A program made the translations under genes and the position numbers. DNA of 25,478 nt from a virus. Position 1 is the first letter of the stretch, and the number at the start of each line of letters is the position of its first letter. This document shows positions 6,451-25,478 of the stretch, one piece after another. The stretch lies in IMG/VR virus record IMGVR_UViG_3300042301_001793, positions 1 through 25,478 of that record; one strand, written 5' to 3'. The notes below the pieces were generated by a model. That model was not told where the DNA came from and searched no databases. It saw only the letters and a list, made by a program, of their open reading frames with translations.

Positions 6451-9336
6451 ATGCCATATATCGTCGTTGAAAATTTCAAGGGAGGCCTTGATACGCGGCG
6501 GCATAAGCTGTCCTCAGCTCCCGGCACATTGACCGGCCTGGTCAACGCGCACGTCACGCGCGGGGGCGAGATCGAGAAGCGCAAGGCCTTTCACCTAACC
6601 TACACGCTACCGGCCGGGACGTTCGGCCTGGAGACGAGCTCTGGTTCTGTCTATGTGTTCGGTTCCCTGGACCTGGCTAGCCAGATGCCGGCCGGCGTGA
6701 TCTACCAGCGCCTGGTTTCCCCGGACGGCGCCGGCAACGCCATGACCGACGTCGTCTATTCGACGGTATACGGAGGCAAGCCGTTCGTAATAGCTCAGTA
6801 TGCGAACGGATTGAAATACCCGTTCTGGGATGGCGCCTACATCAAGGACTTCAGCTCCGGCATAGTCACGGCAGCCATGATGAACAACGCCGGCATCGCT
6901 GCGCACCTGGCTTCCGTGTTCTCCTACACTAACGACGAGAACCAGCCCTATTCGATCCAGGTGATCAATGGGAATAAGCTGCGAATAGTCGGCCCTCCTG
7001 GCGTCGCGTTTGAGGGGCGCATGATCAAGAATTCAAACCCGGCTACTGACGGAGTCATTGTCCAGGCTAAGACTGATCCAACCCCGGACAAAAAAGCCAA
7101 GGGATCTTTCGTCGTCTTAAACGGATCGGCTTCAACGTCAGCGACGATGAGCTACGCGCTGCGCCAGCACAACTACCCAGGGCTCCCGCCTACCATCGGC
7201 GTCTGGGTGGCCTATGCTGACGGGTCTGCGAAAGAGCTGCTTGGCTTCCCGGCGCCACTCCCTCCTCCGATCATCCGCACATGTTCAACGGTTGACGGAA
7301 GCCTTACTGTTACGACTGCAGACACTACCGGCATATCCGTTGGAATGACTGTAACAGGGAACGGCATACCGGATCTTGCCAAGGTGGCAGCGCTCTGGGA
7401 CGACGGGACCAATAAGGGCTTCACCCTTACTGCCGGACATGAGGCTACCGAGGATCAGACGGACGTTTCTATTACTCTGCGAGAGCCGGTGATTGCTACG
7501 ATCCAGGGGTTTGGCGCCTGGAGCATGGCCGGTGGTATCGGGGGGGACCCTGGTCAGCGCTACGCAGCTGCGTTCTCTACTTACGTCAACGCGAACAGCG
7601 GGAATACCGGCTACACGGCAAGCTATTGGCATGGCGGTGGAGGCTGGAACAAGTGGGATCCGGGCTCATGGACGCTTTACGCTCCTCTTTCAGACTACGA
7701 GAGCGCCAATAACAGATCCGTTTGGGTTGAGTTTACAGCCCAGCCAGGATACCCAGGATCAACCGGCGGCAACCCTGGTGATAATTTCTTTAGTTACGCT
7801 GCCGATACAATCATGCCCAGCCCCTACTACAGGGTCGGCGAGGACAGGTCCCAACCTACCGGAAGATGGATCATGAAAACAATGGGATACACCGGCGGCG
7901 TCCTGGCCGGCGGCACGTTCAATGGCATTAGCAGCGTGACGGTTGACGGCGTCGAGGTCCTTGGATCTCGCGTTCCCTGGGCTAACTCAAACAGCTCGCT
8001 GGCTCTTAACGTCGTTAACCAGATCAACACATTTTTATCGACGACTGAATACACGGCTTCCGTGTCGAACAATACGACGATTAATGTCGAGACTTTGCCT
8101 GGAACGGGAACCTCTGGGAATGGACGTAGTATTTCAGCTACGCCCGTCGGCTCTGTCACGTTGTCCGCGTTCTCGTCGTTCTCCGGAGGAACGAACCTTG
8201 TCCAGGCTGCCCCGCAGATCATGGAGTTCACGATCTCCGACACGTTCACGCCTGGAGATAAGTATTCGATCATCCTGGTAGACCCAGCTTCCCCCAACCA
8301 GCCATATCAGTTCGGCTTCAACCGCGTAGGTGGCGTCCAGCCCAATTTCTCTGCCACATACAAGGGCAAGGAATACCTGGCTGCCGGATCTACCCTATAC
8401 TTTTCCAAGCTCAACGACGCGACCAAGTGGGGTGTCTATGAGCTAGGATCCGGCTTTATCGACATGTCCAATAACTTTGGCGGCCGTGAGGACATTACCG
8501 GGTTTGGCGCCTACCAGGGCTTTGTGGCCGTCTTTACCCGGCGCAACTGCCAGCTCTGGTTCTTTGACCCTAACCCGGCTCAGAACGCCCAGAAGCAGAT
8601 CCTGGACAACACCGGCTGCCTGGCGCCTGGATCGGTCGCTGCGGTCGGCGCCGTCGATATGTTCTACCTGGCTGACAACGGGATCAGATCCCTGCGCGCC
8701 CGCGAAAACACCGACGCGGCCTACGCCAACGACATTGGTTCCCCGGTAGATCAGATGGTCATAGACCACATGCGGACCATGACTGAGGCCGACAAGTATA
8801 ACGCCAAGGCGATCATCGAGCCGGAGGACGGCCGGTATTGGCTGGCTCTTGGCTCCAGGCTGTTCGTCCTGTCCAGCTTTGCCGGGTCCGGTATCAATGC
8901 CTGGTCGGAATATGAGCCAGGCTTCCAGGTCCAGGAGCTCGCGTCCATGGAGAACAAGGTTTACGCGCGCAGCGCCGGTAACCAGATCTTTGTCTACGGT
9001 GGCTTATCCGGCGGCGTATACGACAGCAGCCCGGTCACGGTTGAGATGCCTTACCTGGACGCCAATAAGCCGGCCACGTTTAAATCGGTCAATGGCCTGG
9101 ACGTAACCGTCGAGGGCAAGTGGACGGTTTACATGGGCTTTGACTACACCAACCCCACCGCCAGAGACGAGATCGCGACCATGGAGCAGCCGACGTTCGC
9201 CCTGGGTCGCATCCCGGTGACCGGCTACGGAACCCATATCGGCCTTAAGCTCACCAGCTCAGCCCCAGGCTACGCCAAGCTTGCCAACGCGATCGTCCAT
9301 TACGACGACCAGCACTCCAAGCATGAAGCTGGTTAA
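6451..9336 (+). CDS. Large tail nozzle / stabilisation-type protein with embedded beta modules
   Basis: This 961-residue protein probably forms the tail tube or nozzle below the adaptor (role of T7 gp12 or P22 gp10). It opens with VENFKGGLDTRR and GGEIEKRKAF (residues 4-50), a start pattern familiar from podophage tail proteins. Residues about 283-345 form a Thr/Val/Gly-rich beta module with ISVGMTVTGNGIP. Residues about 485-583 form another, with SVTVDGVEVLGSRV and NGRSISATPVGSVT. Both resemble beta modules inserted in many virion proteins. The C-terminal third (about 590-961) returns to propeller-like strands (VFTRRNCQLWFFDP, RYWLALGSRLFVLSSF). GC falls to about 45% in parts of the second insert (7981-8100) against 58% in the sampled C-terminal line, consistent with domain insertion. 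It ends inside the next gene. Receptor-binding function is not evident. Confidence 0.72.
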   Translation: MPYIVVENFKGGLDTRRHKLSSAPGTLTGLVNAHVTRGGEIEKRKAFHLTYTLPAGTFGLETSSGSVYVFGSLDLASQMPAGVIYQRLVSPDGAGNAMTDVVYSTVYGGKPFVIAQYANGLKYPFWDGAYIKDFSSGIVTAAMMNNAGIAAHLASVFSYTNDENQPYSIQVINGNKLRIVGPPGVAFEGRMIKNSNPATDGVIVQAKTDPTPDKKAKGSFVVLNGSASTSATMSYALRQHNYPGLPPTIGVWVAYADGSAKELLGFPAPLPPPIIRTCSTVDGSLTVTTADTTGISVGMTVTGNGIPDLAKVAALWDDGTNKGFTLTAGHEATEDQTDVSITLREPVIATIQGFGAWSMAGGIGGDPGQRYAAAFSTYVNANSGNTGYTASYWHGGGGWNKWDPGSWTLYAPLSDYESANNRSVWVEFTAQPGYPGSTGGNPGDNFFSYAADTIMPSPYYRVGEDRSQPTGRWIMKTMGYTGGVLAGGTFNGISSVTVDGVEVLGSRVPWANSNSSLALNVVNQINTFLSTTEYTASVSNNTTINVETLPGTGTSGNGRSISATPVGSVTLSAFSSFSGGTNLVQAAPQIMEFTISDTFTPGDKYSIILVDPASPNQPYQFGFNRVGGVQPNFSATYKGKEYLAAGSTLYFSKLNDATKWGVYELGSGFIDMSNNFGGREDITGFGAYQGFVAVFTRRNCQLWFFDPNPAQNAQKQILDNTGCLAPGSVAAVGAVDMFYLADNGIRSLRARENTDAAYANDIGSPVDQMVIDHMRTMTEADKYNAKAIIEPEDGRYWLALGSRLFVLSSFAGSGINAWSEYEPGFQVQELASMENKVYARSAGNQIFVYGGLSGGVYDSSPVTVEMPYLDANKPATFKSVNGLDVTVEGKWTVYMGFDYTNPTARDEIATMEQPTFALGRIPVTGYGTHIGLKLTSSAPGYAKLANAIVHYDDQHSKHEAG

Positions 9337-9805
9337 TCTCAACGAGCCGGATCTGCTGTTCATCTGCGACAACATGCGAGAGCTCGACAAGCGCGAGATC
9401 TACGCGACGCGCTGGACAGACAACCCGGAGCACCTGGTCGATAGCGTCATGATCGTCCCGGAGCTTGGCTGGATAGCTAAGACAGACGCCGGCGTTCCGG
9501 TGGCTGCCATCGGCGTCGTTCCCATGTGGGACGGAGTATGGTCTGTATGGATGTTCGCGACCGACAAATGGCCGGAGGTTTCATTCGCCATGACTAAGTT
9601 CATCAAGCGCGCGCTGCCACAAGGCATGGCTGACGCCGGCATACACCGCGCTCAATGCTACTCCTCCGCGGATCATAACGTAGCTCATGCCTGGCTGCGC
9701 ATGCTTGGCGCCGACAAAGAGTCGGACATTAAGTCGTATGGAAAAAACGGTGAGGACTTCATTCTTTTCAGCTGGATAAAACAACCAGCCAAAACACACT
9801 CCTAA
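9323..9805 (+). CDS. Gp13-like GNAT-fold protein (internal virion protein A-like)
   Basis: From the ATG at 9323 the product is MKLVNLNEPDLLFICDNMRE..., 160 residues. It overlaps the end of the tail gene by 14 bases. An upstream in-frame ATG at 9281 would add a Ser/Thr-rich leader wholly inside the tail gene and is less likely. The layout is that of the T7 Gp13 family, a GNAT acetyltransferase-like fold: an N-terminal helix, a central GVWSVWMFATDKWPEVSF strand-helix, and a C-terminal HNVAHAWLRMLGAD followed by GEDFILFSW. A canonical acetyl-CoA loop (R/Q-x-x-G-x-G/A) is not obvious, so it may be structural rather than enzymatic. In T7, gp13 is needed for virion assembly although it is not a major component. 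Placement directly before candidate ejection proteins matches T7 gene order. Confidence 0.6.
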   Translation: MKLVNLNEPDLLFICDNMRELDKREIYATRWTDNPEHLVDSVMIVPELGWIAKTDAGVPVAAIGVVPMWDGVWSVWMFATDKWPEVSFAMTKFIKRALPQGMADAGIHRAQCYSSADHNVAHAWLRMLGADKESDIKSYGKNGEDFILFSWIKQPAKTHS

Positions 9806-14815: not shown

Positions 14816-17800
14816 ATGAGCGCAAGAGGTTCTAGTAATTTCGAAGGAAACCAGGCTGCAAACCAAGCCAGGCAACAGGCAGCGCAGCTTGAAGCGCGCA
14901 AACAGGCTGAAGCAGCGCGCGCTGCAGCTATTGCTGGGGCGGCAGCTCCTCAGACTACCCCATCTTCCGGCGCTCCCGTAGCTAGCGAGATCGCGAAGCT
15001 AATGGTCGAGACGGCCCAGCGCCAAAAAGCGCAGCCGTCCCCACTTGCAGCCTCTGGCGTATCCCAGGCGCTGCCTCTTAGCCCGATTGCTCCGGGCCAG
15101 CCTGGCCTTCCTGCTGGCGCCCCCACTTCCCTGTCTGATTTATTCGGCGGCCCTGCTGCGTCCCAGGCTCAAGGCGGCCTTTCGGACTACGGTCTTTCTC
15201 CCGACCCGGAGATGATCACCAACGCCGGCGGTAACCCTAACGCGATCACCAGCGACATGCCGGCCGGCATGACCATGGAGCCGGAAGCTCCTATGCCTGG
15301 CCAGCCGGCGCCCCAGGGCGCAGCTCCTATCACCGGAGCCACCACCATTTCTGATCTCGTCGCCCGCGGCCTTGGCGTCAACCAGGCGCCCCAGGCTCCG
15401 GCCATAGCTCAGCCTGGCATGCCGGCGCCGCGCGTCCCTCAGCTGCCACCCATGCCTCAGCTGCCGACCCCCACAGGTCCGCAGATGTTGCCTCAGTATG
15501 CCGGCGCGGACTCTCGCGCTAACTTTGCTCCTGGCGGCACCCCTCAGCTCATGCCGGAAGCCCAGGCCCGCGTTGACCTGGCCAATGCCCCTACCTTTGC
15601 GGATTGGGCCAACCAGCTCCAACAGATGGGGATCGCCGGCAACCCGGCCGCCGCGACCTTTGGCACCGGTATGCCGTCGCCGCGTGTCCCGCAGCTGCCG
15701 CCTATGCCCCAGCTCCCGACGCCGTCGGGTATTCCTTCTGGTCTTGCAGCGCCCCAGCCGGCGCCCCAGGCTCCTGCTTATGCCAATCCCCAAGCCCAAG
15801 GTGGTGTTCAAGCACCCGCCGGACCTCAAGCTCCGGGCGTCGTTCAAGGCCAAGCAGCTCCGGCTCAGCAAGTCCAAGCCCAAGCCCAGCCTCCTGTCGC
15901 TCCTGCGCCCGTTGCTGGACCGGCTCCTGCGCCGGCGGTAGCCCCTGCTCCTGCCCCGGCCCCCGCGCCCCAGGCGCCCCAGGCTCAGCAGCCTCCGTCC
16001 ACCCAGGAACCGGCGCCGATCGACCAGCCGGCCGGCGAAGAAGGCCAGGCCGCCCCTGGCGGCGCGTTCAACGGCTCTCCCCTCCAGAACGCGAAGCCGG
16101 AAAAGCCGATGATCTCCGGCGGCCAGCTGACGCCTCCGACGACATTTGGCAGCATCTCCCCCAATCGTGTCGTCTCGCAGGACAGGCTAACCAAGGCCGG
16201 TCTTTCCGGCGCGCTCTTGTCTCAGTTCGTCGAAGAAGCTCAAATCGGCGCGGTCAAGTGGTATAAGCGCACCGTCGATAACGAGAGCGAGGCCGCCTCG
16301 CTGCTTTACGAATTTGCTAAGAACCGCGCCCAGGAGGAGGCCTTGATGCTCATCCTGGACGGACAGAACCGTCCGATTGCGATCCTGCGCCACCAGATGG
16401 GCGGCCCCGGAAGCACCAGCTTCGCGCCTAACATCCTTGCCGGCGTCGCTGCTGCCACGCCTGGCGCCAAGAAAGTTTATACCGCGCATAACCACCCTGG
16501 CCGGAGCATCGCGTTTTCCGATAAGGATCTCACCAGCCAGCACACCGTCGGGAAGATCCTTTCTTTCGTCGGCGTCGAGGTGAAGGGCGTCATGATCCTG
16601 GGTGATCCCAATTACGACATAGCCGGTATGGACAAGCCCAGGTTCTTGTTCACGGCCGGAAAGGATCTTCTTAAGGATCTTAATCGTTACGCGAACGGAC
16701 GTCCCGATGGTGATGATCCTGCGACCCAAGAGATCCCCATGGCCGCGGACATGGTCCCCCAGAGCGAGGGCTCCGACGACCGCGAAGGCTACGATCCTGG
16801 CCTTAGCGATGAGGACAACATCACGGCGTTTGGTCGCCGGTCGAACGCCGGACTGTATGACATTCCGATCGTTGAGCGCGTGTTTACTACGCGAGGCCGC
16901 GGCCTGGCTAGTGTCAAAATGTCGGCTTCCGGCGGTTACGCTGAGATCGCTCCGCTTCTTCAGAACGGATCTGGCCTGGCGTTTGTTGACGCCGGCCTTA
17001 ACCTTGTCGGCGTCCTGCCCATGTCTATCCGCGAGATGGGCATGCTCATGTCCTATGTCAGCCGTAACCACAAGCCGGGGCAGGGTCACCTGGTTGTGTC
17101 CTCCCGCAAGCTTGGTCCTGCCAGCCTCCGCATCGCTCCCGTAAGGGACGCCGACGGCAAGACCAACGGCAATAAGAACATTGGTCGCGGCAACCTAGAC
17201 TATAGCAATAGCCCGATGGCACGGATCATGGCCATGAACGCCAAGTCCAACGCCGGCCGCGTGATCATCCACCTGGGTGACGTTGACGCCGACCAGGTTT
17301 CCAACGGCGACGACATTTCCGGAACCGTGTCCGGTCGCAACATGACCGCCGACGATGTTATCGACGCAGTCCAGAACCTTAAGGAGGCCATTCAAGAGTC
17401 CGGCCTAGAGTTCCTTGAAGTGACCGGCAACGACACCGGATACGGTGCGTTCCCGTTTGGTCGCCGCCGCGATCTGCAGCCGGATCAATCCAAGGCTCCG
17501 ATCGACGAGGTTAGCCGCTACACCCCGGAAGGCGAAAAGGCCCTGGCAGACGATCAGCAGCCTGGCGCTATCCGCAATCTCCCGAACCCCAAGCTGCCTA
17601 CCGGAGATCGCGCCTCGTTCCGCGAAGAAGGCGAAGCCTATGGCGCCGAGGGTGAAGCCCAGGGTGGCGTCGAAGGCATCGTCCGAGAAGGCCTCCAGGG
17701 CCCGGCAAATGAGGACGCCGACGTCAACGAAACCAACCCGGACGATCCTAACGCCGGCGCAGAGTTTGCCCGCCAGGAGCGCGAAGCCGGCGCCAGGGTT

Positions 17801-20800
17801 AACAGAGATCTACCCAGCGGCCTGGAAAACGCGACTGACGTAACCCCCCTTCTTGGAGCTTACACCCCTAAGAACAAGCTTAGGATCAAGTCTGTCCCAG
17901 GAGAGATGGGAATGAATACCAGCGTCGAAGGAGAGCCAACCCCCTCGATGGAAAAGATTGGCCCTTCCCAGCGCGAGTCCGCTGCTGGCGCCTCCGTATT
18001 CCCACGCACCCTTAGCCCGGCTACCAAGTTTGGCCGATGGACCGGTGAGCAGCTTAAGGACTTTGGTTTGTCCCAGGCCATGCTCGATCAGTTCGTCGAA
18101 CATTCGACGATAGGTCACGTCATGTCCGGCGTCGAGTTCGTCAAGAACGCGGGCGACGCAGCTCACGTCGTGTCCTACATGCGCAAGAACCCGGTCGAGG
18201 AGATCGTCATTCTCGTCTGCGATAAGAACGGCAAGCCTCTCCAGGTGGCCAGGCATAGCACGGCCCATGAGGCCGCCGCTTGTGTCTTTAATCCTGCGAT
18301 CCTTGTTGGCGCCGCAGCCAGCACCCCTGGTGCTGACACGGTTTACTTCATCCATAACCACCCGTCCCGTAAGCCGCACCTTTCCGGTTCAGACGAAAAC
18401 GCCGACAGCAAGATCCGTGACTTAGTTAAAGCTGCCGGTCTAAAGTTTGGAGCTACCATCGCTATCGCCGGCGACAAGTTTGCTGCGCGAGTCAACGGTG
18501 GTATGTCTCAAGGAGCTGTTCCGATCAAGCCGGCTCCGCGTAAGTTTAAGATCCCTCTTACCGAACGTAGGTTTGCGTTCCATGTCGGATACAGCGGCGA
18601 AAGGATCTACGGAACCGCAGACAGCTCCACCCTGGGCGCTGAGGTCTTTGGGACGCAGCCAGGCGTGATCTTCCTGGATAACAACGAGCGCCCGGTTGCC
18701 ACTCTCCCTCTCAGCCTTGAAACCCTGGCTAAGATGCGCGAGCCGGACCCCGCCGGCCAGACGGGCTTTGGTAAATTCGTGGCCACGACCGACCGAGCCG
18801 GAGGTTTGCACATGATCCTATACCTGGGCGACGTCCAGAGGAACGATACCCAGAAATGGATGGGAGCTGCTAATAACTTCACCAAGACTGTCCGCGCAGC
18901 CGGCGGTGTTAAGATGAAGCACATCACCAACATGGATGGAGATACGCTTACCCCTACCCAGGAGTGGGGTGATTTTGACGAAACCGGCGAGGACTATAAC
19001 GCCGGCCAGGACAAGCCGGCCTCCCTGCGCGAAGCGGTAGAGCAAGCGGCTAAAAAAAAAAATGACCTAGAGGTTGGTGAGGGTGACCCGGATCCGGAAA
19101 GCATGGCCCAAATGGGCGAGCTTGAACGATCCTGGCGTGAGGACATGGCTGCTAAGAAGGAAGCTGCAGCCAGGGCGGCGGTAGCCCCTGGCGGCGTCCG
19201 CGCTAACCATGACAACCAGGCCCTGGCCGACAACGGTTTCATCACTCAGCGCGCAAGCCAGGACATGGCCAGGATCATGGAGCGCATCAACAAGCGCTTC
19301 CCTAACGGCTACAAGTTCTTCAAAGCCGGCATGATGGCCGCGCCGGAGTTCAAGAAGATCGCCAATCTCCGGCTGCGCTACGAGAGCCACAACGCCGGTT
19401 TTTCCGGCTTTGAAAGCCAGGACTACGTCTACATCGACGCCGTCTTTGAGGACGGTTCGACGCGCGAGATCGCCAGCCTGGATCTGATGCGCGGCTATGG
19501 CGGCTCCCCGGAGTTCCCAACGGTCGTCACCAAGGTGGGCATGAGCAGCGTAAACACCGATCTTCAGAAGCTTGGCCTGGGTAGCATCTTATATGTCGAG
19601 GGTGGCGAGCGCTTGCGCCGGATGGGCCAGCGAGAGCTGACCGGATCCGTCGTTAACCCGGCTGCCGTAGCTACCCGCGTTAGGGCCTTCCCGGCCGGTA
19701 GCACCGAGCTCGTTTCTATCCCTGGATCGTCTACCATGACCCAGCAGCACATGGCGCAGGAAGCGCTCTTGATCATCAAGAGTGGCATGGCTGCCTATAC
19801 GAGCACACGCCTGGATCCGAACGTCGCCCTGGAAGAAGGCCAGGCCTACGACGATGGCGAGAACACGGTGATCCCTGGCGGCGCCAGGGAAGCCAAGCTT
19901 AAGCAGCAGCCTACCCGGCTGCCGTTGACCTACCTCAATATCGGCCACGGCCCCGGCCCTAATGGCCAGGCTGGGTTCGACTCACCCGAAGCAAAGAAGG
20001 CCTATTACGACAACACCTACCTGTATTTCATAGATAAGAACGGCGAGGTCCATATCACGGAAAACCTGTCGGAGTTATCCCAGGTTAATGGTCCTTGGGC
20101 GAAGGGTAACCCCGACTCCGTAACCCACGGAATGGTGTTCTTGAACAGCAAGTTCGGCGGCATTGGCCGCGATCACAATGGCTTCATGGAAGCCGTCGCC
20201 ATGGGCCGGATCGAGAACCGTGACGGCAAGCTGGTCATGAGCCTAACGCCAGGACCGCAACGGCATCGGATGGGCAAGCCCGTCCTGGAGGACGGCAACC
20301 TGGCTGCGGATCTGACGGAAGCTATCGCTAACCTCAAGACCGAGGCCACCAAACACTTCAAGCTAAGATCGGAACGCAGCGCCAGCGTAGCGACGTTCGG
20401 CCGGACCGGCACCCTGGTCGAAGAAGCCGGCGCAAACTACGACGACGGCGAGAACATGCGCATCCCCGGCGGCGCGCGCGACAAGTTCCTGGACGACAAG
20501 GAGCAGCTGGTAAAGACCTTCAAGGAATACGGCTACATGACCCTTGGTCACGGGATCGACACGTTTGGTGAGCCTGTTGATAAGACCGGCGCCTGGAAGA
20601 AGAAGGCCTACATGTTCATCATCGACCCGGACGGCATGGTCCGCGTCAGCGACACGATCGACAAAGAAGAGGCCAAGTATATCCGAACGATGCAGAAGGA
20701 GTGGGTCGGCATGGCCGTCACCCTTAAGGACATGCTCAAGGCCCAGCCTAACACCAACGTGGTCATTCATAGGCAAGCCTTCCCTGGTCTGCGCAGCATG

Positions 20801-23800
20801 GCCGTCCAGGGGCGCGTCGAGATCCGCGACGGCGTGGCCTACGTTAGCGTCATCAAGAACAATAACCAGAACGAGAACACGGCCAAAGAGCGTCAGCAGC
20901 GCCTGGATCAGATCCGCAGCACGGTCCGTGAAAAGACCGGCGTTAGGGACGTCCGCATCGTGGACATGTCTGCACCGGCCGACGCAGATCCGACCAGGGA
21001 CGCGGACTCCGCGCGCGAACCGGCCATGCCCTACGACGACGGCGAGAACACCCGTATCCCCGGCAGCGAGCGAGACGAGCGCCTTAAGAAGCTTGAGGAA
21101 CGCGCCCGATACATGGAGCAGCTTGGATACATGCACATCGGCCATGGCTATGACGCCGGCATGTTTAGCGAGGACAAGACTCCTGGCGCCTGGAAGAAGA
21201 AGGCCAGGATGTGGGTCCTGTCTACTGAGACGGACCGGATCAAATTCAGCCAGACGATCGACAGGGTCGAAGCCCGTCAGCTTGCCAACATCAAGCGCAT
21301 GCTTCTTGAGGCCGAAGAAAAGGTTAAGCAGACCGACCCGAAGGACCCCATGCTTGGACACCGACAAAGCCTTGTGACCTATTACGCCAAGCGGGCCAAG
21401 GACTTGCAGCACGACATTGGAACGAACGAGTCAGACGTCACCCATAGCGACTCTGCTGCCTTTAGCAAAAATGACTACACCGGACGCAACCCCCAGGGGC
21501 GCGTCGAGATCACACAGGACGGAGTCCTGGTCAGCGTGACCAGGCTGCGCGGCAACATGGAGTCTGTAGCTGATGAAGATTTTGTCATGAGAGAGCTGCG
21601 CGAAGCTGTCGCGAAGGAGCTGGGAGTGTCTCCCAACGAGGTCCGCATCGTGGACATGGATGGGAACACGCCGCCGGTCACGGGGACCGAAACCGATGAT
21701 AGCGCCAGGGAAGCCGGCGCCGCCTACGACGACGGCGAGAACCAGGCTATCCCTGGCGGCGGCCGCCAGGCCTGGATTAAGAAACAGGCTGCGCTGCGCG
21801 CTAAGAACGAACTGCCTGGCGCCCGCCGGATCCAATGGTGGACGGACGTTGGCCATAAGGGGGGTAAGAAAAGCCGCGAGAAAACCTGGCTCTGGGCTTA
21901 CGACAAGCAGGGCAAACTCCAGGTGATCAACGCCGACGAGCTTAGAACCAAGATGATGGATGACGGAGACGCCCTGGGCGCCACCCCCACGCACCTGGAT
22001 TGGGAGGAGGCCTACTTCCCTGGACTCCTGTCCGGAACGGCGCATGGCCGGATCGACGCGAGCGAGGAAGTGATCCGCGTGTCACTTACCGGCCGGATTA
22101 AAGACTCCGCGTTTCGAGAACAGGTCAAGCAAGAGCTGGCCGAATACATCGGCGCCGACGTCGATAAGGTCAAGGGCTACGACTTCACCGGCGGCGGCAT
22201 GCCGGAAGTGTTTGAGCCTGGATCTGAATACGAGGTCCGCGACGACAATAACGAGATCGTCGTGATCAGCTGGGACGACATTGGCTACCCTAAGACTGAG
22301 GCCCCCGACGCCGAGCAGCGTGGCATCAGAAACAAGATGGACGACGCCACCCCTATGGGCCTGTTCTTCATCAATAAGCAGGGCCAGATGGTAACGATCA
22401 CCCAGAACGAGCTCGCGCAGAGATCCATTGACGCCGGCCGTTACATTGACCCGACCCAGGTTGACCATCACGATTGGGCTGACATTGGCCATGAAGGCCT
22501 CAAGGCCGCCGGCATCGAGGCCTGGGACGGAACCAACGACGTGGCCTGGGGCCGGTATGAGATGCGCCCGGACGGGTCCTACATCATGTCCTACCGCGGC
22601 CGGCGCGGTCATTACGGCAACCAGGACGCCAAGGCCAAGCTGGCTGTGATGCTTGAGGTCACCCCGTCACAGATCACCGGCTTTGATTTCCTTAAAAGGG
22701 ATAAGACCAAGGCCACCAGCAACGGCTGGCGCGCCAGCAACGGACGCAACTACAGGGCGGCCCCGATGTTCAACCAGAACCAGGCCGGCAGCGATGCCGA
22801 ATTCCGACAGCTTGCCAACGAGCTGAAGGGCATGAACGTCGATCAAGCCAAGGCCTACTTCAAGAACAACCCCGGCAAGGTTAAGCTCCTGTCCAACCGC
22901 AAGCTGCCGCCTCACCTGGAGAAGCTCATCCAGGCCATGCGCACCATCGGCTACAACGATGCCAAGGCCTGGCTGCAAGCTCACCCTATCGGCCGGAAGC
23001 TCATGGAAAACGGCCGGCTTATCCTGGTCAAGAGCCCCAGCGAGGTGCCCTTTATCAGTCCGCTTGATGCGGACACGGTGGACTTCAATGGCGTCGTCGA
23101 TGGGAACAATCGTGAAGCCACCTATTTCGTGGGAGATCGCATCTCCCAGGCAGAGCTTGACGCCCTAATCCTGCATGAGGTCGGAGTCCACATGGGCATC
23201 GGCAAGGATACGGACCTGGTCAACGACCTATTCGCGGAGCTGTATAGCCTGGCTAAGAACGGGTCCAAGTCAGACCCGGACGTAGCTATCCTAAACGACA
23301 CGTTTGCGCGCGCGTTTGATGCGGTTTGCAGCCTAACGTCCTATGGCCCGGAGATCATGAGGCTCATTAACCAGGGGCAGCTTAGCCCGGTTGAAAGACA
23401 TTCTCCGGAGCGCATCGCCCAGATCATCAAGCAAGTCCTTCAAGCCGACGCGGCTAAGAACAAAGAAACCATTGACGACGGCGACATAGCAGATTTCACG
23501 GCGCACATCATGCGCATGTATCACGAGGAAGCCCTTGGCTACCTCATGAACATGATCTCCATAGCTGAGAACGATGGCACCTATAAGGAGAAGGGCATCA
23601 TCGCCTCGTTGATCCAATGGATCAAGGCGACCATGATCCGCATGGCTTACGCCAATAGCCAGGGCGGCAACCGCCGCGTAGCCGGCGCTGTAATGGGAGC
23701 TCTCAAGGCCGGCCAGGTTATCTCCGGTGCCATCGGAATGTCCAATGTCGGTAACGCCCTTGGGTTTAACGAGCTGAGCAAGCTGCTGGCTATCACTCCA

Positions 23801-25478
23801 GGCGACGTCCGGGCGATCGCCCAGGGATACGCCAAGGTCTACGCCGCCGGCAAGGAAGTCCGCGTGGCCACGGCCAGGAATGGAACCTGGGAGCTGACTG
23901 CCCAGAGCCAGGCAAACATTAATCAGCGCATGCGTCCGAACGCCGGCAACACCGCGCTGTTCGCCCGGACCATGTCCGAGGAAACGCGCAAAAACGCATC
24001 CAGAGGAGGGCCCAACCAGGGGTTGGCGTTCCAGGCTTCAACTGAGGAGCAGATCAAGGCTGAAATAGACAGGATGAATAATGAGAACAAGGCGGCCGGA
24101 GCTAACGAAGTCATCACTAGATCTGATTTTGTCGGAGCAGAAAGCGAACAGGTTGGCAACGAGCAGCCCATGCCTACGGCACCTATTGGTCCGCTTGGAA
24201 CGCAGCTGCCTATCGGTCCTAATCAGCGCGATGCTTTTGCTCCCGTCCAGGGAGTCAGCTTCCCGTCTGTTAACCTTGATCTTCCAATTTCATTAAGATC
24301 GCGTGGCAAGCGCACGGACATCCGTAACGAAAAAATAACAGGGGCAAGGATCGTTCTCCGAGAGGGTATCCATAAACCCGCCAAAAAAGACGACAGATGG
24401 GAGGGAGGGGGCGGCTTTGGACTTGTTCACCTTATTGCAAAACATGGCGCCGAGCTGAGGGCTACAGGTTTATTTAATGGATTGACCGACACACAGATGG
24501 TTCAGAAGGCCGTCGATCTGATCCTTTCGTCTAATAACAAAGTCGTTAAGTTTAGCATGGGATCAATGGATACTGACAGGGCCTTGAAGGAACCAGGCAA
24601 GGGCACCGAAAGACTGTCTACCCAAGAGGCCAACGTAGTATTAATTAAGGATAATAATACGGGCCTTATCGTGGCCCTGCGTATCCACCAAAACGATCCT
24701 AGCTTTGCCGGCTATGATCCAGATGCAGGGACTAATTTCTTAACGATTGGATCTCTCTACACGCAAGATCCAGGCAAGACGTTTGAAAACCTTAAGGGTG
24801 GCATGGAACGATTGGTTAATGCTAATACAATCTCCGTTAACCAAGGTAGCAATAACGTGCAAGAAAGCAGCCAGGTTGAAGAAACCGGCGAACAGCTCCA
24901 GGCCAGGGAGCAGGATCAGATCCGCGACATACTATCACACCAGGGCGGCGGCCCGGCCGGCCCCGCGCTGCTTGCCTCGCTGCCTCCCACCCCGCCCCCG
25001 CCTACGCCTACCGCCCCGGCGGCACCCTTGCCGGCACCTCTGAACCCGCCGGCTTCCAACGACGATACGGCGCGCCGCGTAGGCGACGTGCTACGCGGTC
25101 GTTACTTTGACGGCATCAGCACCAAGGCGCACCAGAACGCGGAGCGCACCGGCAGCGCAGCCGTCCGGGCTATTGCGGACATTATCCACACCCGCCCAGG
25201 AACGGAGAACCCGTCCTCTGATCGCGACCTACCCAAGGCAATCATGACGGCGCGCGCCAAGTATCAGAACAAGTTTAACGAGATCATGCGCCCGCTGCGC
25301 GATCAGCTTGGTCGCATGACCAGCGAGCAGCGCGAGCAGTTCTACCGCGATCTCGTCGATCAGATCACCGGCCGGACCAACATCCAGCCTGGCGTCGCCG
25401 GCCACGCAGCCACGCAGCTGATCGCCCTGCTTAAGGAGCTGCACGATTACCGGACCGCAGCCGGCGAGGACCTGGGCC
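14816..25478 (+). CDS. Giant polyvalent virion-associated protein (3' end beyond window)
   Basis: One uninterrupted frame of more than 3,554 codons, read codon by codon to the right edge without a stop. Order of parts by residue: 1-60 Ala/Gln helical; 60-430 Pro/Ala/Gln-rich arm; 462-608 RadC-like JAB 1; 683-865 companion 1; 1084-1235 JAB 2; 1246-1375 companion 2; about 1472-1635 GNAT-like; 1678-2625 tandem modules; about 2670-2945 HExxxH zincin; about 3170-3330 BECR-RNase-like; 3377-3416 proline hinge; then helical to the edge. This mix of peptidase, acetyltransferase-like and nuclease-like domains is the hallmark of phage polyvalent proteins, thought to be co-delivered with DNA to counter host functions. 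The gene ends the ejection-protein block, consistent with packaging in the virion. No signal peptide is seen. Whether it is processed into smaller proteins is unknown. Confidence 0.9.
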   Translation, partial: MSARGSSNFEGNQAANQARQQAAQLEARKQAEAARAAAIAGAAAPQTTPSSGAPVASEIAKLMVETAQRQKAQPSPLAASGVSQALPLSPIAPGQPGLPAGAPTSLSDLFGGPAASQAQGGLSDYGLSPDPEMITNAGGNPNAITSDMPAGMTMEPEAPMPGQPAPQGAAPITGATTISDLVARGLGVNQAPQAPAIAQPGMPAPRVPQLPPMPQLPTPTGPQMLPQYAGADSRANFAPGGTPQLMPEAQARVDLANAPTFADWANQLQQMGIAGNPAAATFGTGMPSPRVPQLPPMPQLPTPSGIPSGLAAPQPAPQAPAYANPQAQGGVQAPAGPQAPGVVQGQAAPAQQVQAQAQPPVAPAPVAGPAPAPAVAPAPAPAPAPQAPQAQQPPSTQEPAPIDQPAGEEGQAAPGGAFNGSPLQNAKPEKPMISGGQLTPPTTFGSISPNRVVSQDRLTKAGLSGALLSQFVEEAQIGAVKWYKRTVDNESEAASLLYEFAKNRAQEEALMLILDGQNRPIAILRHQMGGPGSTSFAPNILAGVAAATPGAKKVYTAHNHPGRSIAFSDKDLTSQHTVGKILSFVGVEVKGVMILGDPNYDIAGMDKPRFLFTAGKDLLKDLNRYANGRPDGDDPATQEIPMAADMVPQSEGSDDREGYDPGLSDEDNITAFGRRSNAGLYDIPIVERVFTTRGRGLASVKMSASGGYAEIAPLLQNGSGLAFVDAGLNLVGVLPMSIREMGMLMSYVSRNHKPGQGHLVVSSRKLGPASLRIAPVRDADGKTNGNKNIGRGNLDYSNSPMARIMAMNAKSNAGRVIIHLGDVDADQVSNGDDISGTVSGRNMTADDVIDAVQNLKEAIQESGLEFLEVTGNDTGYGAFPFGRRRDLQPDQSKAPIDEVSRYTPEGEKALADDQQPGAIRNLPNPKLPTGDRASFREEGEAYGAEGEAQGGVEGIVREGLQGPANEDADVNETNPDDPNAGAEFARQEREAGARVNRDLPSGLENATDVTPLLGAYTPKNKLRIKSVPGEMGMNTSVEGEPTPSMEKIGPSQRESAAGASVFPRTLSPATKFGRWTGEQLKDFGLSQAMLDQFVEHSTIGHVMSGVEFVKNAGDAAHVVSYMRKNPVEEIVILVCDKNGKPLQVARHSTAHEAAACVFNPAILVGAAASTPGADTVYFIHNHPSRKPHLSGSDENADSKIRDLVKAAGLKFGATIAIAGDKFAARVNGGMSQGAVPIKPAPRKFKIPLTERRFAFHVGYSGERIYGTADSSTLGAEVFGTQPGVIFLDNNERPVATLPLSLETLAKMREPDPAGQTGFGKFVATTDRAGGLHMILYLGDVQRNDTQKWMGAANNFTKTVRAAGGVKMKHITNMDGDTLTPTQEWGDFDETGEDYNAGQDKPASLREAVEQAAKKKNDLEVGEGDPDPESMAQMGELERSWREDMAAKKEAAARAAVAPGGVRANHDNQALADNGFITQRASQDMARIMERINKRFPNGYKFFKAGMMAAPEFKKIANLRLRYESHNAGFSGFESQDYVYIDAVFEDGSTREIASLDLMRGYGGSPEFPTVVTKVGMSSVNTDLQKLGLGSILYVEGGERLRRMGQRELTGSVVNPAAVATRVRAFPAGSTELVSIPGSSTMTQQHMAQEALLIIKSGMAAYTSTRLDPNVALEEGQAYDDGENTVIPGGAREAKLKQQPTRLPLTYLNIGHGPGPNGQAGFDSPEAKKAYYDNTYLYFIDKNGEVHITENLSELSQVNGPWAKGNPDSVTHGMVFLNSKFGGIGRDHNGFMEAVAMGRIENRDGKLVMSLTPGPQRHRMGKPVLEDGNLAADLTEAIANLKTEATKHFKLRSERSASVATFGRTGTLVEEAGANYDDGENMRIPGGARDKFLDDKEQLVKTFKEYGYMTLGHGIDTFGEPVDKTGAWKKKAYMFIIDPDGMVRVSDTIDKEEAKYIRTMQKEWVGMAVTLKDMLKAQPNTNVVIHRQAFPGLRSMAVQGRVEIRDGVAYVSVIKNNNQNENTAKERQQRLDQIRSTVREKTGVRDVRIVDMSAPADADPTRDADSAREPAMPYDDGENTRIPGSERDERLKKLEERARYMEQLGYMHIGHGYDAGMFSEDKTPGAWKKKARMWVLSTETDRIKFSQTIDRVEARQLANIKRMLLEAEEKVKQTDPKDPMLGHRQSLVTYYAKRAKDLQHDIGTNESDVTHSDSAAFSKNDYTGRNPQGRVEITQDGVLVSVTRLRGNMESVADEDFVMRELREAVAKELGVSPNEVRIVDMDGNTPPVTGTETDDSAREAGAAYDDGENQAIPGGGRQAWIKKQAALRAKNELPGARRIQWWTDVGHKGGKKSREKTWLWAYDKQGKLQVINADELRTKMMDDGDALGATPTHLDWEEAYFPGLLSGTAHGRIDASEEVIRVSLTGRIKDSAFREQVKQELAEYIGADVDKVKGYDFTGGGMPEVFEPGSEYEVRDDNNEIVVISWDDIGYPKTEAPDAEQRGIRNKMDDATPMGLFFINKQGQMVTITQNELAQRSIDAGRYIDPTQVDHHDWADIGHEGLKAAGIEAWDGTNDVAWGRYEMRPDGSYIMSYRGRRGHYGNQDAKAKLAVMLEVTPSQITGFDFLKRDKTKATSNGWRASNGRNYRAAPMFNQNQAGSDAEFRQLANELKGMNVDQAKAYFKNNPGKVKLLSNRKLPPHLEKLIQAMRTIGYNDAKAWLQAHPIGRKLMENGRLILVKSPSEVPFISPLDADTVDFNGVVDGNNREATYFVGDRISQAELDALILHEVGVHMGIGKDTDLVNDLFAELYSLAKNGSKSDPDVAILNDTFARAFDAVCSLTSYGPEIMRLINQGQLSPVERHSPERIAQIIKQVLQADAAKNKETIDDGDIADFTAHIMRMYHEEALGYLMNMISIAENDGTYKEKGIIASLIQWIKATMIRMAYANSQGGNRRVAGAVMGALKAGQVISGAIGMSNVGNALGFNELSKLLAITPGDVRAIAQGYAKVYAAGKEVRVATARNGTWELTAQSQANINQRMRPNAGNTALFARTMSEETRKNASRGGPNQGLAFQASTEEQIKAEIDRMNNENKAAGANEVITRSDFVGAESEQVGNEQPMPTAPIGPLGTQLPIGPNQRDAFAPVQGVSFPSVNLDLPISLRSRGKRTDIRNEKITGARIVLREGIHKPAKKDDRWEGGGGFGLVHLIAKHGAELRATGLFNGLTDTQMVQKAVDLILSSNNKVVKFSMGSMDTDRALKEPGKGTERLSTQEANVVLIKDNNTGLIVALRIHQNDPSFAGYDPDAGTNFLTIGSLYTQDPGKTFENLKGGMERLVNANTISVNQGSNNVQESSQVEETGEQLQAREQDQIRDILSHQGGGPAGPALLASLPPTPPPPTPTAPAAPLPAPLNPPASNDDTARRVGDVLRGRYFDGISTKAHQNAERTGSAAVRAIADIIHTRPGTENPSSDRDLPKAIMTARAKYQNKFNEIMRPLRDQLGRMTSEQREQFYRDLVDQITGRTNIQPGVAGHAATQLIALLKELHDYRTAAGEDLG
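15419..15730 (+). repeat. Duplicated proline motif in the N-terminal arm
   Basis: A 20-residue phrase, MP-A/S-PRVPQLPPMPQLPTP-T/S-G, occurs at residues 202-221 and 286-305, 84 residues apart, within the Pro/Ala/Gln-rich arm. The DNA copies (starting 15419 and 15671) differ mainly at third positions, so the peptide has been kept while the codons drifted. It may be a polyproline-II arm or a binding motif; no function is known. Confidence 0.75.
16199..16640 (+). other. Domain: RadC-like JAB/MPN metallopeptidase 1 (in giant CDS)
   Basis: Residues 462-608. The zinc-site motif H-x-H-x7-S-x2-D is complete: His558 and His560 (AHNHPG), Ser568, Asp571, with Glu507/Glu508 upstream as the candidate catalytic glutamate. 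The helical lead-in is GLSGALLSQFVE at 462. RadC-like JAB domains are common in polyvalent proteins, where they are predicted peptidases or DNA-repair-like modules; the substrate here is unknown. Confidence 0.82.
16862..17420 (+). repeat. Companion domain 1, following JAB 1
   Basis: Residues about 683-865. It is related to the segment after JAB 2: IPIVERVFTT matches IPLTERRFAF, SGLAFVDAGLNLVGVLPMS matches PGVIFLDNNERPVATLPLS 35-36 residues later, and HLGDV matches YLGDV. Copy 1 carries about 47 extra residues between the last two motifs. I do not recognise the family; it appears alpha/beta. Confidence 0.65.
18065..18520 (+). other. Domain: RadC-like JAB/MPN metallopeptidase 2 (in giant CDS)
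   Basis: Residues 1084-1235. The same zinc motif is intact: His1180, His1182 (IHNHPS), Ser1190, Asp1193, with VEEIVIL upstream giving the glutamate. The lead-in GLSQAMLDQFVE begins 96 residues before the first motif histidine, exactly the spacing in copy 1, which shows a shared origin. Both copies keep every zinc ligand, so neither looks inactive. Confidence 0.82.
18551..18965 (+). repeat. Companion domain 2, following JAB 2
   Basis: Residues about 1246-1383, the shorter of the two companion copies, with IPLTERRFAF at 1246, PGVIFLDNNERPVATLPLS at 1282 and YLGDV at 1336. It always follows a JAB domain here, so JAB plus companion is the duplicated unit. Function unknown. Confidence 0.65.
19052..19062 (+). 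other. A11 homopolymer: possible transcriptional slippage site
   Basis: Eleven consecutive A encode KKKN at residues 1413-1416 of the giant frame. The next bases put TGA (19063-19065) in the -1 frame and TAG (19068-19070) in the +1 frame. Any one-base slip therefore ends the protein at once, after both JAB units. It may be a programmed slippage site or simply a tolerated run. Confidence 0.45.
19230..19720 (+). other. Domain: GNAT-like segment (in giant CDS)
   Basis: Residues about 1472-1635. The C-terminal part has LGLGSILYVEGGERLRRMG (1586 onward) followed by LTGSVVNPAAVATRVRAF. This strand-loop-helix-strand pattern, with a Gly-x-Gly loop and a late Asn-Pro-x-Ala, is common in GNAT acetyltransferases. 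The usual Arg/Gln before the glycine loop is not clear, so activity is uncertain. The call is from pattern only. Confidence 0.45.
19847..22690 (+). repeat. Tandem array of an unrecognised ~200-residue module (4 clear + 1 degenerate)
   Basis: The linker YDDGEN..IPG..R starts copies at residues 1678, 1875, 2073 and 2304 (bases 19847, 20438, 21032, 21725). In each, a strand with GHG (or VGHKGG in copy 4) follows within about 25 residues, then a W/F-rich strand ending in a D/K-G-x-V/L turn. After that come a His (TH, IH or VTH), a GR-V/I-E/D strand and a helix ending before a V-R/K-I/G-x-D strand. Copies 2 and 3 are closest, sharing exact DNA stretches of about 20 bases. A fifth copy without the linker lies at about 22249-22690 (MGLFFINKQGQ, VDHHDW, GRYEMRPDGSYIMSY). 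I cannot name the fold. Confidence 0.8.
22825..23655 (+). other. Domain: zincin-like metallopeptidase with HExxxH (in giant CDS)
   Basis: Residues about 2670-2947. ALILHEVGVHMGIG carries His2787, Glu2788 and His2792, an HExxxH variant of the zincin motif. HEEALGYL (Glu2904/Glu2905), about 112 residues later, is the likely third ligand, followed by a basic helix WIKATMIRMAY. This HEVGVH plus EEALxYL pairing matches the zincin-like peptidases of phage polyvalent proteins as I remember them. The substrate is unknown. Confidence 0.7.
24330..24810 (+). other. Domain: possible BECR-fold RNase (in giant CDS)
   Basis: Residues about 3172-3332. GGFGLVHLIAKHG (His3205, His3210) resembles the G-x-G-x-x-Hi-x-x-x-Hg signature of the phage Barnase-EndoU-ColicinE5/RelE-like nucleases. 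Strands VVKFSMGS, EANVVLIKDNNTG and LIVALRIHQND follow. By hand count GC is about 45% over 24421-24840 against 60-70% in sampled upstream lines, suggesting separate acquisition. If active it would cut RNA after delivery to the host. Confidence 0.5.

Follow-up and report, generated by a model that had tools for sequence, protein, structure and literature searches.

The gene at the end of the analysed stretch of viral DNA encodes a polyvalent protein on a chassis of the T7 gp16 type, a variant of a known protein kind. The stretch (the window, 25,478 bases) is an entire IMG/VR record and is itself a fragment, so that the contig ends inside the gene. We consider it likely, with a probability of roughly 0.7, that the product belongs to the T7 gp16 class of virion ejection proteins, and that in it an array of exchangeable cargo modules is carried by an ejectosome chassis, and that an A11 run within the gene is a slippage site. 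The sequence-only reading had described one giant open frame from the ATG at 14816 to the window edge, and this was borne out by the 3,554 codons, the giant orthologues and the coding constraint described below. That reading overlooked the A11 run and did not recognise what the C-terminal region is. The segments of the gene, with boundaries drawn by profile HMMs built on the window's own segments, are as follows.

14816..25477, + strand: giant open reading frame, 3,554 codons with an ATG start, open at the 3' end where the contig edge cuts it
14816..16105, + strand: low-complexity N-terminal region rich in Pro, Ala and Gln (aa 1-430; sequence, codon-position GC)
16106..16642, + strand: RadC-like JAB domain 1 (aa 431-609), HNHP...S..D at aa 558-571 (Pfam, HMM, PDB)
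16775..17458, + strand: domain X, copy 1 (aa 654-881; HMM)
17972..18517, + strand: RadC-like JAB domain 2 (aa 1053-1234), HNHP...S..D at aa 1180-1193 (Pfam, HMM, PDB)
18518..19015, + strand: domain X, copy 2 (aa 1235-1400; HMM)
19052..19062, + strand: A11 run that separates the RadC half from the remainder, candidate programmed slippage site
19223..19735, + strand: GNAT-like segment (aa 1470-1640), QKLGLGS motif (HMM)
19811..20344, + strand: module M, copy 1 (aa 1666-1843; E 1.5e-44)
20402..20962, + strand: module M, copy 2 (aa 1863-2049; AF2 model with mean pLDDT 78.7)
20996..21652, + strand: module M, copy 3 (aa 2061-2279; E 4.5e-55)
21689..22180, + strand: module M, copy 4 (aa 2292-2455; E 7.1e-58)
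22244..22681, + strand: degenerate fifth M copy (aa 2477-2622; E 5.1e-4), without the YDDGEN..IPGG start
22733..23515, + strand: candidate zincin-like metallopeptidase (aa 2640-2900), HEVGVH (HEXXXH) at aa 2787
23513..24055, + strand: post-zincin segment (aa 2900-3080; HMM), found solely behind this zincin type
24173..24715, + strand: candidate PBECR-like RNase (aa 3120-3300), assigned by the motif GLVHLIAKH only
25061..25477, + strand: start of the constant C-terminal region (aa 3416-3554), 92-93% identical to orthologues, gp16-type family

The frame is not a product of chance, because the codon-position GC (0.64/0.46/0.71, high at the third position), the pairwise dN/dS of 0.08-0.33 for regions of the giant among relatives and the complete giant orthologous frames found elsewhere all testify to coding. 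Related contigs were retrieved via the capsid protein and the zincin region. The complete orthologues comprise 3,690 aa (45.1-kb contig), 3,775 aa (45.7 kb), 3,321 aa (43.6 kb), 2,899 aa (39.7 kb), 4,209 aa (48.3 kb), 4,274 aa, 4,050 aa and 4,528 aa (47.7 kb), the last of these occupying about 28% of its contig. Extrapolation from the 3,690-aa orthologue indicates that the window protein is probably about 4,180 aa long in full, with about 630 residues missing. The middle of the gene found no match among cultured phages in a nucleotide search. The notion of one gene encoding one protein holds for the open frame but is possibly incomplete, as two separate products may arise at the conserved poly-A run.

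The genes upstream of the giant encode TerL, a portal of the P22/SU10 type, a major capsid protein (MCP) of the SU10 type and an SU10 adaptor. They also include the genes of a 961-aa protein, whose internal-virion match is weak, and of a 174-aa internal virion protein, for which the match is strong. This gene set (TerL, portal, MCP, adaptor and internal proteins) therefore indicates a short-tailed phage in which the giant closes the virion block. The same last position after TerL, portal, MCP, adaptor and internal proteins was found in the relatives and in Microcystis phage Mae-Yong1326-1. The placement of the giant at the end of this block in the earlier reading is supported. The gene preceding the giant showed no detectable relation to T7 gp15. 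A search of 84,980 bacterial and archaeal genomes with patterns from the chassis alignment produced no relative, and hence no host was found.

Some annotations in this neighbourhood deserve mention. The 174-aa protein (9281-9805) matches phrog_308, internal virion protein, with E 4e-16; around this position, Mae-Yong1326-1 and RHph_N65 have genes annotated as N-acetyltransferase/N-acyltransferase, which suggests a solo GNAT in the virion block. The 961-aa protein (6451-9336) is homologous (36-42%) to gene EVC08_005 of RHph_N65, whose annotation names a 6-phosphogluconate dehydrogenase protein despite the gene's place among virion genes.

The C-terminal part of about 765 aa is constant among the giants. 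The window covers its first 139 aa, and the rest of the chassis of the window phage is taken from the orthologues, which are 92-93% identical over those 139 aa. When the chassis family (27 sequences) was compared by hhalign with 11 gp16-type proteins, including T7 gp16 and phiKMV gp37, the match reached P 98.4% and E 8.6e-15 over 575-641 co-linear columns, and the controls gave 0.15 and 0.38 with reversed profiles and 0.01-0.84 with other modules of the giant. Single-sequence hhalign comparisons (T7, phiKMV and VP2 proteins) yielded hints only; the link became clear with the richer profiles. The match corresponds approximately to residues 600-1265 of T7 gp16, via the alignment to phiKMV, and the strongest hydrophobic peak of the chassis falls in the part that is aligned with the C-terminal putative membrane segment of T7 gp16. 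Judged by these profile comparisons, the chassis and the C-terminal half of gp16 (T7/phiKMV), a protein of the DNA ejectosome, are homologues.

The PHROG matches of the chassis are labelled 'virion structural protein', and the chassis was also seen in Mae-Yong1326-1 and in two Pseudomonas phages, KPP25 and R18, where it is called a 'structural protein'. Its structural model is all helical (mean pLDDT 69.7) and had no fold match in the PDB; among the 50 matches listed from a viral structure library, many were internal virion protein D/core, the KPP25 structural protein or 'large polyvalent protein'. A basic C-terminal tail was found in close relatives, not in all giants. A bare chassis in RHph_N65 (stretch 1-30,000) was considered and is not supported.

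A review (PMC8954989) describes T7 gp16 as having a transglycosylase at its N-terminus, a C-terminal domain that binds DNA in the cytoplasm and putative membrane segments, and points out that ejection proteins can swap the N-terminal domain. The transglycosylase is not conserved in the gp16 class (PMC8954989) and is an optional part, absent in P22 and Sf6; the Pfam scan of the open part of the giant in the window detected no lytic or transglycosylase domain either. The giant thus resembles a gp16-class protein in which the cargo slot at the N-terminus has expanded to about 3,400 residues. It shares with T7 gp16 and phiKMV gp37 the approximately 600 homologous C-terminal columns, the N-terminal cargo slot, the position as the last gene of the ejection block and the C-terminal hydrophobic segment. 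Unlike these proteins, it is three times longer, carries many exchangeable modules and a constant region of 765 aa, lacks a detected N-terminal transglycosylase and has a neighbour that is not recognisable as a gp15 equivalent. Membership in the family of the N4-type virion RNA polymerase, a protein of similar size (about 3,400-3,500 aa) with a zincin-like domain, is very improbable: recent work assigned the vRNAP of the N4-like phage DEV to the gp16 position within the ejection machinery (PMC10925440), but no polymerase domain appeared in the Pfam and PHROG scans of the giant, which left some segments unassigned, and the C-terminal region of the giant matches gp16.

The two JAB domains proposed at the outset were confirmed by Pfam PF04002, which matches the window protein in two stretches (E 2e-21), by PDB 2QLC (E 1.7e-8) and by the metal-site residues E ... 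HxH(x7)S(x2)D, which are invariant in 15 of 15 JAB copies. As sequence assignments, the RadC domains are solid. Domain X always follows directly after a JAB domain; its copy 2 had no convincing sequence relative in the PDB. Both ends of contig IMGVR_UViG_3300032307_000462 (one end in L072, the start in L073) lie in the repeated RadC-X unit, which suggests that a third RadC copy broke the assembly. In contig G001, the two ends lie in a repeated RadC-X unit without terminal overlap and are not simply joinable.

The invariance of the catalytic residues of RadC in these copies bears on whether the giant could instead be structural, serving as a DNA condenser or internal scaffold, with inactive modules as spacers in place of delivered effectors. 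The annotation of chassis homologues as virion structural proteins and the several modules without recognisable activity would fit such a role, but the invariant residues, the purifying selection on regions of the giant and the fast turnover of modules, as expected of effectors, make it quite unlikely.

The identities of the zincin-, GNAT- and RNase-like segments are plausible but unproven. These segments are indeed present, as claimed earlier, but their identity as enzymes found no significant library match in the window protein. The motif QKLGLGS fits the (Q/R)xxGxG/A motif of GNAT, and a homologous segment in a related giant (L106) overlaps a Pfam Acetyltransf_1 match just below the cut-off; the GNAT-like segment itself had no match in the PDB. 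Zincins are characterised by HEXXH or HEXXXH with a glutamate further downstream and by the zincin fold. A HEXXXH variant of zincins was described for polyvalent proteins (PMC5512222), and HEVGVH in the window fits it. The motif is invariant as HE(V/I)GVH among four close sequences; the zincin-like segment had no Pfam match and no convincing sequence match in the PDB. PBECR RNases are characterised by a BECR fold with a His in a helix and a Ser/Thr near the C-terminus. The RNase-like motif was seen in two sequences, the 3,690-aa orthologue is without the segment, and neither Pfam nor PDB gave a match to it.

The module noted earlier as present in five copies has four strong copies (E <= 1e-44, profile HMM), but the fifth is weak and degenerate and forms a very long branch in the M tree. 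In this tree, the window copies pair with their positional counterparts in other phages (identity 80% for M1, 71% for M2, 56% for M3 and 78% for M4) and are distant from their own neighbours within the window. The M copies are therefore old paralogues of which different phages kept different subsets, the 3,690-aa orthologue keeping M1 and M4 only, and the positional pairing rules out a recent tandem duplication. The exchange of modules implied by the suggestion of ongoing domain shuffling is thus real, but the tandem array is not a sign of ongoing duplication. The array had no relative among cultured phages by tblastn, and comparison of the M-module model with the PDB gave no trustworthy match (best E 0.01 with Foldseek, best Z 4.8 with VIA). 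A module inserted in another giant (L111, aa 3072-3310), with relatives in L090 (53%) and L106 (29%), has a WFDIGH motif reminiscent of M.

Module exchange was observed between two contigs whose flanking DNA is 94-99% identical. Their giants differ by five whole-segment replacements or insertions, and are 97% identical over the C-terminal 1,221 aa and 90% identical over the N-terminal 638 aa. Relatives in other giants were found for 4 of the 6 segments compared between these contigs, and the module order varies within the clade of the window. Homologous giants also contain LPD1 (Pfam, E 1.8e-12) and ART-PolyVal (E 7.5e-5, below the cut-off); in the window protein, the Pfam scan detected no catalogued polyvalent domain besides RadC. 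DUF7178 (PF23802) was seen as a cargo module in two distant giants, at aa 884-966 of the L068 giant (E 5.5e-28) and aa 1455-1661 of the L075 giant (E 1.7e-7). By sequence comparison alone, everything upstream of the chassis is exchangeable cargo. The polyvalent character ascribed to the protein is supported: RadC is present twice, the candidate zincin, GNAT and RNase activities are assigned by motif, and the gene lies among virion genes.

The A11 run is the only run of nine or more A residues in the window. At the same place, A11 occurs in five phages (the window, G001, G002, G004 and L086) and A10 in two (G005 and L093); a further contig (L128) ends just beyond an A10 run. In two relatives the gene is split between the RadC half and the remainder. 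The genomic frame fuses the halves in all five A11 genomes, in which A10 or A12 transcripts would stop within about 1-5 codons. In both A10 genomes the genomic frame stops, and an A11 transcript, with one A inserted, fuses the halves. Both states thus encode the same two products. In the window, the short product of 1,416-1,417 aa (A12 ends after aa 1416, A10 after aa 1417) comprises RadC-X-RadC-X without the chassis. A conserved run of at least nine A residues is therefore accompanied by a defined alternative product, a combination expected of a programmed slippage site. The run lengths come from metagenome assemblies, in which homopolymer errors are possible in single contigs, and the pattern recurs across seven. 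Taken together, these features make the run most likely a programmed transcriptional slippage site.

Another possibility is that the run leaves expression unaffected and is either a neutral KKKN linker or an artefact of assembly. Lys-rich linkers are common and the assemblies are metagenomic, but AAA accounts for only 7-29% of the Lys codons in these genes, and every further KKK triplet found is written AAG-AAG-AAG. Moreover, A9 matches in the window were expected 0.09 times and observed 3 times, the run recurs in seven phages, and stops follow immediately in both other frames, for which the background chance is 3.3% per codon position. We regard the neutral explanation as unlikely. A doubtful but less remote explanation keeps the gp16-type polyvalent protein and treats the run as a contingency locus at the DNA level, where replication slippage (phase variation) would leave the gene fused or split in each genome. 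That related phages differ by A10 versus A11 at one place, both states being coding-competent, is in agreement with this, but A10 and A11 each recur in separate contigs and look stable. Mixed products would be expected in any case, as slippage of RNA polymerase on A11 is documented at 15-25% (PMC4256274).

Transcriptional slippage as the preferred explanation of the run is analogous to that in tssM1 of Citrobacter rodentium and tssM3 of Yersinia pseudotuberculosis, where a poly-A run (A11 in tssM1) also yields a long and a short product and the two species have opposite states. In C. rodentium, about 20% slippage on A11 leads to the long form, whereas the opposite genomic state in Y. pseudotuberculosis yields the short form (PMC4256274). 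In contrast to the giant, for which slippage is predicted, it was proven experimentally for tssM, which encodes an unrelated protein.

By analogy with gp16, the giant as a virion ejection protein would be packaged in the virion, and its chassis would leave the capsid through the portal ahead of the DNA. The chassis might then insert at the inner membrane and serve there as the end of the DNA channel that faces the inner membrane and the cytoplasm, with the cargo exposed to the host. The cargo array would consist of RadC-X, RadC-X, the GNAT-like segment, the M modules and the zincin-like and RNase-like segments, where T7 gp16 has a single transglycosylase. According to the theory of polyvalent proteins, the modules would enter the host as infection begins, where they would weaken its defences or take over its machinery, and may be freed by the embedded zincin. 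Slippage in the A11 phages is predicted to supply a minority of free RadC-X-RadC-X of about 1,417 aa beside the full-length protein; the reverse ratio is predicted for the A10 phages.

Several known proteins are related to the giant. ORF38 of Mae-Yong1326-1 (UUJ74515.1, 2,441 aa) resembles the giant in gene position, MCP (40%), chassis and LPD1, and differs in being annotated as a peptidoglycan transglycosylase and in that no RadC, M or zincin module was found in it. This 2,441-aa 'peptidoglycan transglycosylase' (L079:10340-17665, OP028995.1) is itself a giant of the polyvalent type that carries LPD1 and ends in a gp16-type region. The structural protein ORF088 of Pseudomonas phage KPP25 has a homologous C-terminal chassis, but is shorter (at least 1,825 aa), and no cargo module of the window was found in it. 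The uncultured Caudovirales proteins A0A6J7XFQ9 (RadC-like JAB) and A0A6J5LZT3 (LPD protein), for which database annotations but no analysis were found, have chassis that are 49-52% identical.

Like the phage-type polyvalent proteins (PMC5512222), the giant is encoded beside virion genes and joins RadC with candidate enzyme domains of other kinds in one polypeptide, among them a putative HEXXXH zincin, and its homologues have LPD1 and ART-PolyVal. RadC was reported only in polyvalent proteins of conjugative elements (Iyer et al. 2017; PMC5512222), whereas here it occurs in phages, and usually twice. A link between polyvalent proteins and gp16 was not drawn in that study (PMC5512222), which mentions neither gp16 nor 'internal virion'.

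The giant joins two seemingly separate fields, the polyvalent injected proteins described in 2017 and the T7-type DNA ejectosome. Whether a podovirus lineage of about 45-48 kb uses a gp16-type protein as a general delivery chassis, with poly-A slippage releasing the RadC half at a set ratio, we judge to be an evenly balanced proposition. Slippage that controls whether an ejected protein is split would add a layer of regulation of which no report was found in the open-access literature searched and, if true, would mean recoded expression of an injected polyvalent protein. On this reading, the giants would furnish a collection of cargo modules, for many of which no fold is recognised, together with a natural delivery chassis. 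If the proposed reading is true, interchangeable effectors travel through the ejection channel on a chassis defined by its C-terminal region, and it becomes testable what a phage injects during the first seconds of infection.
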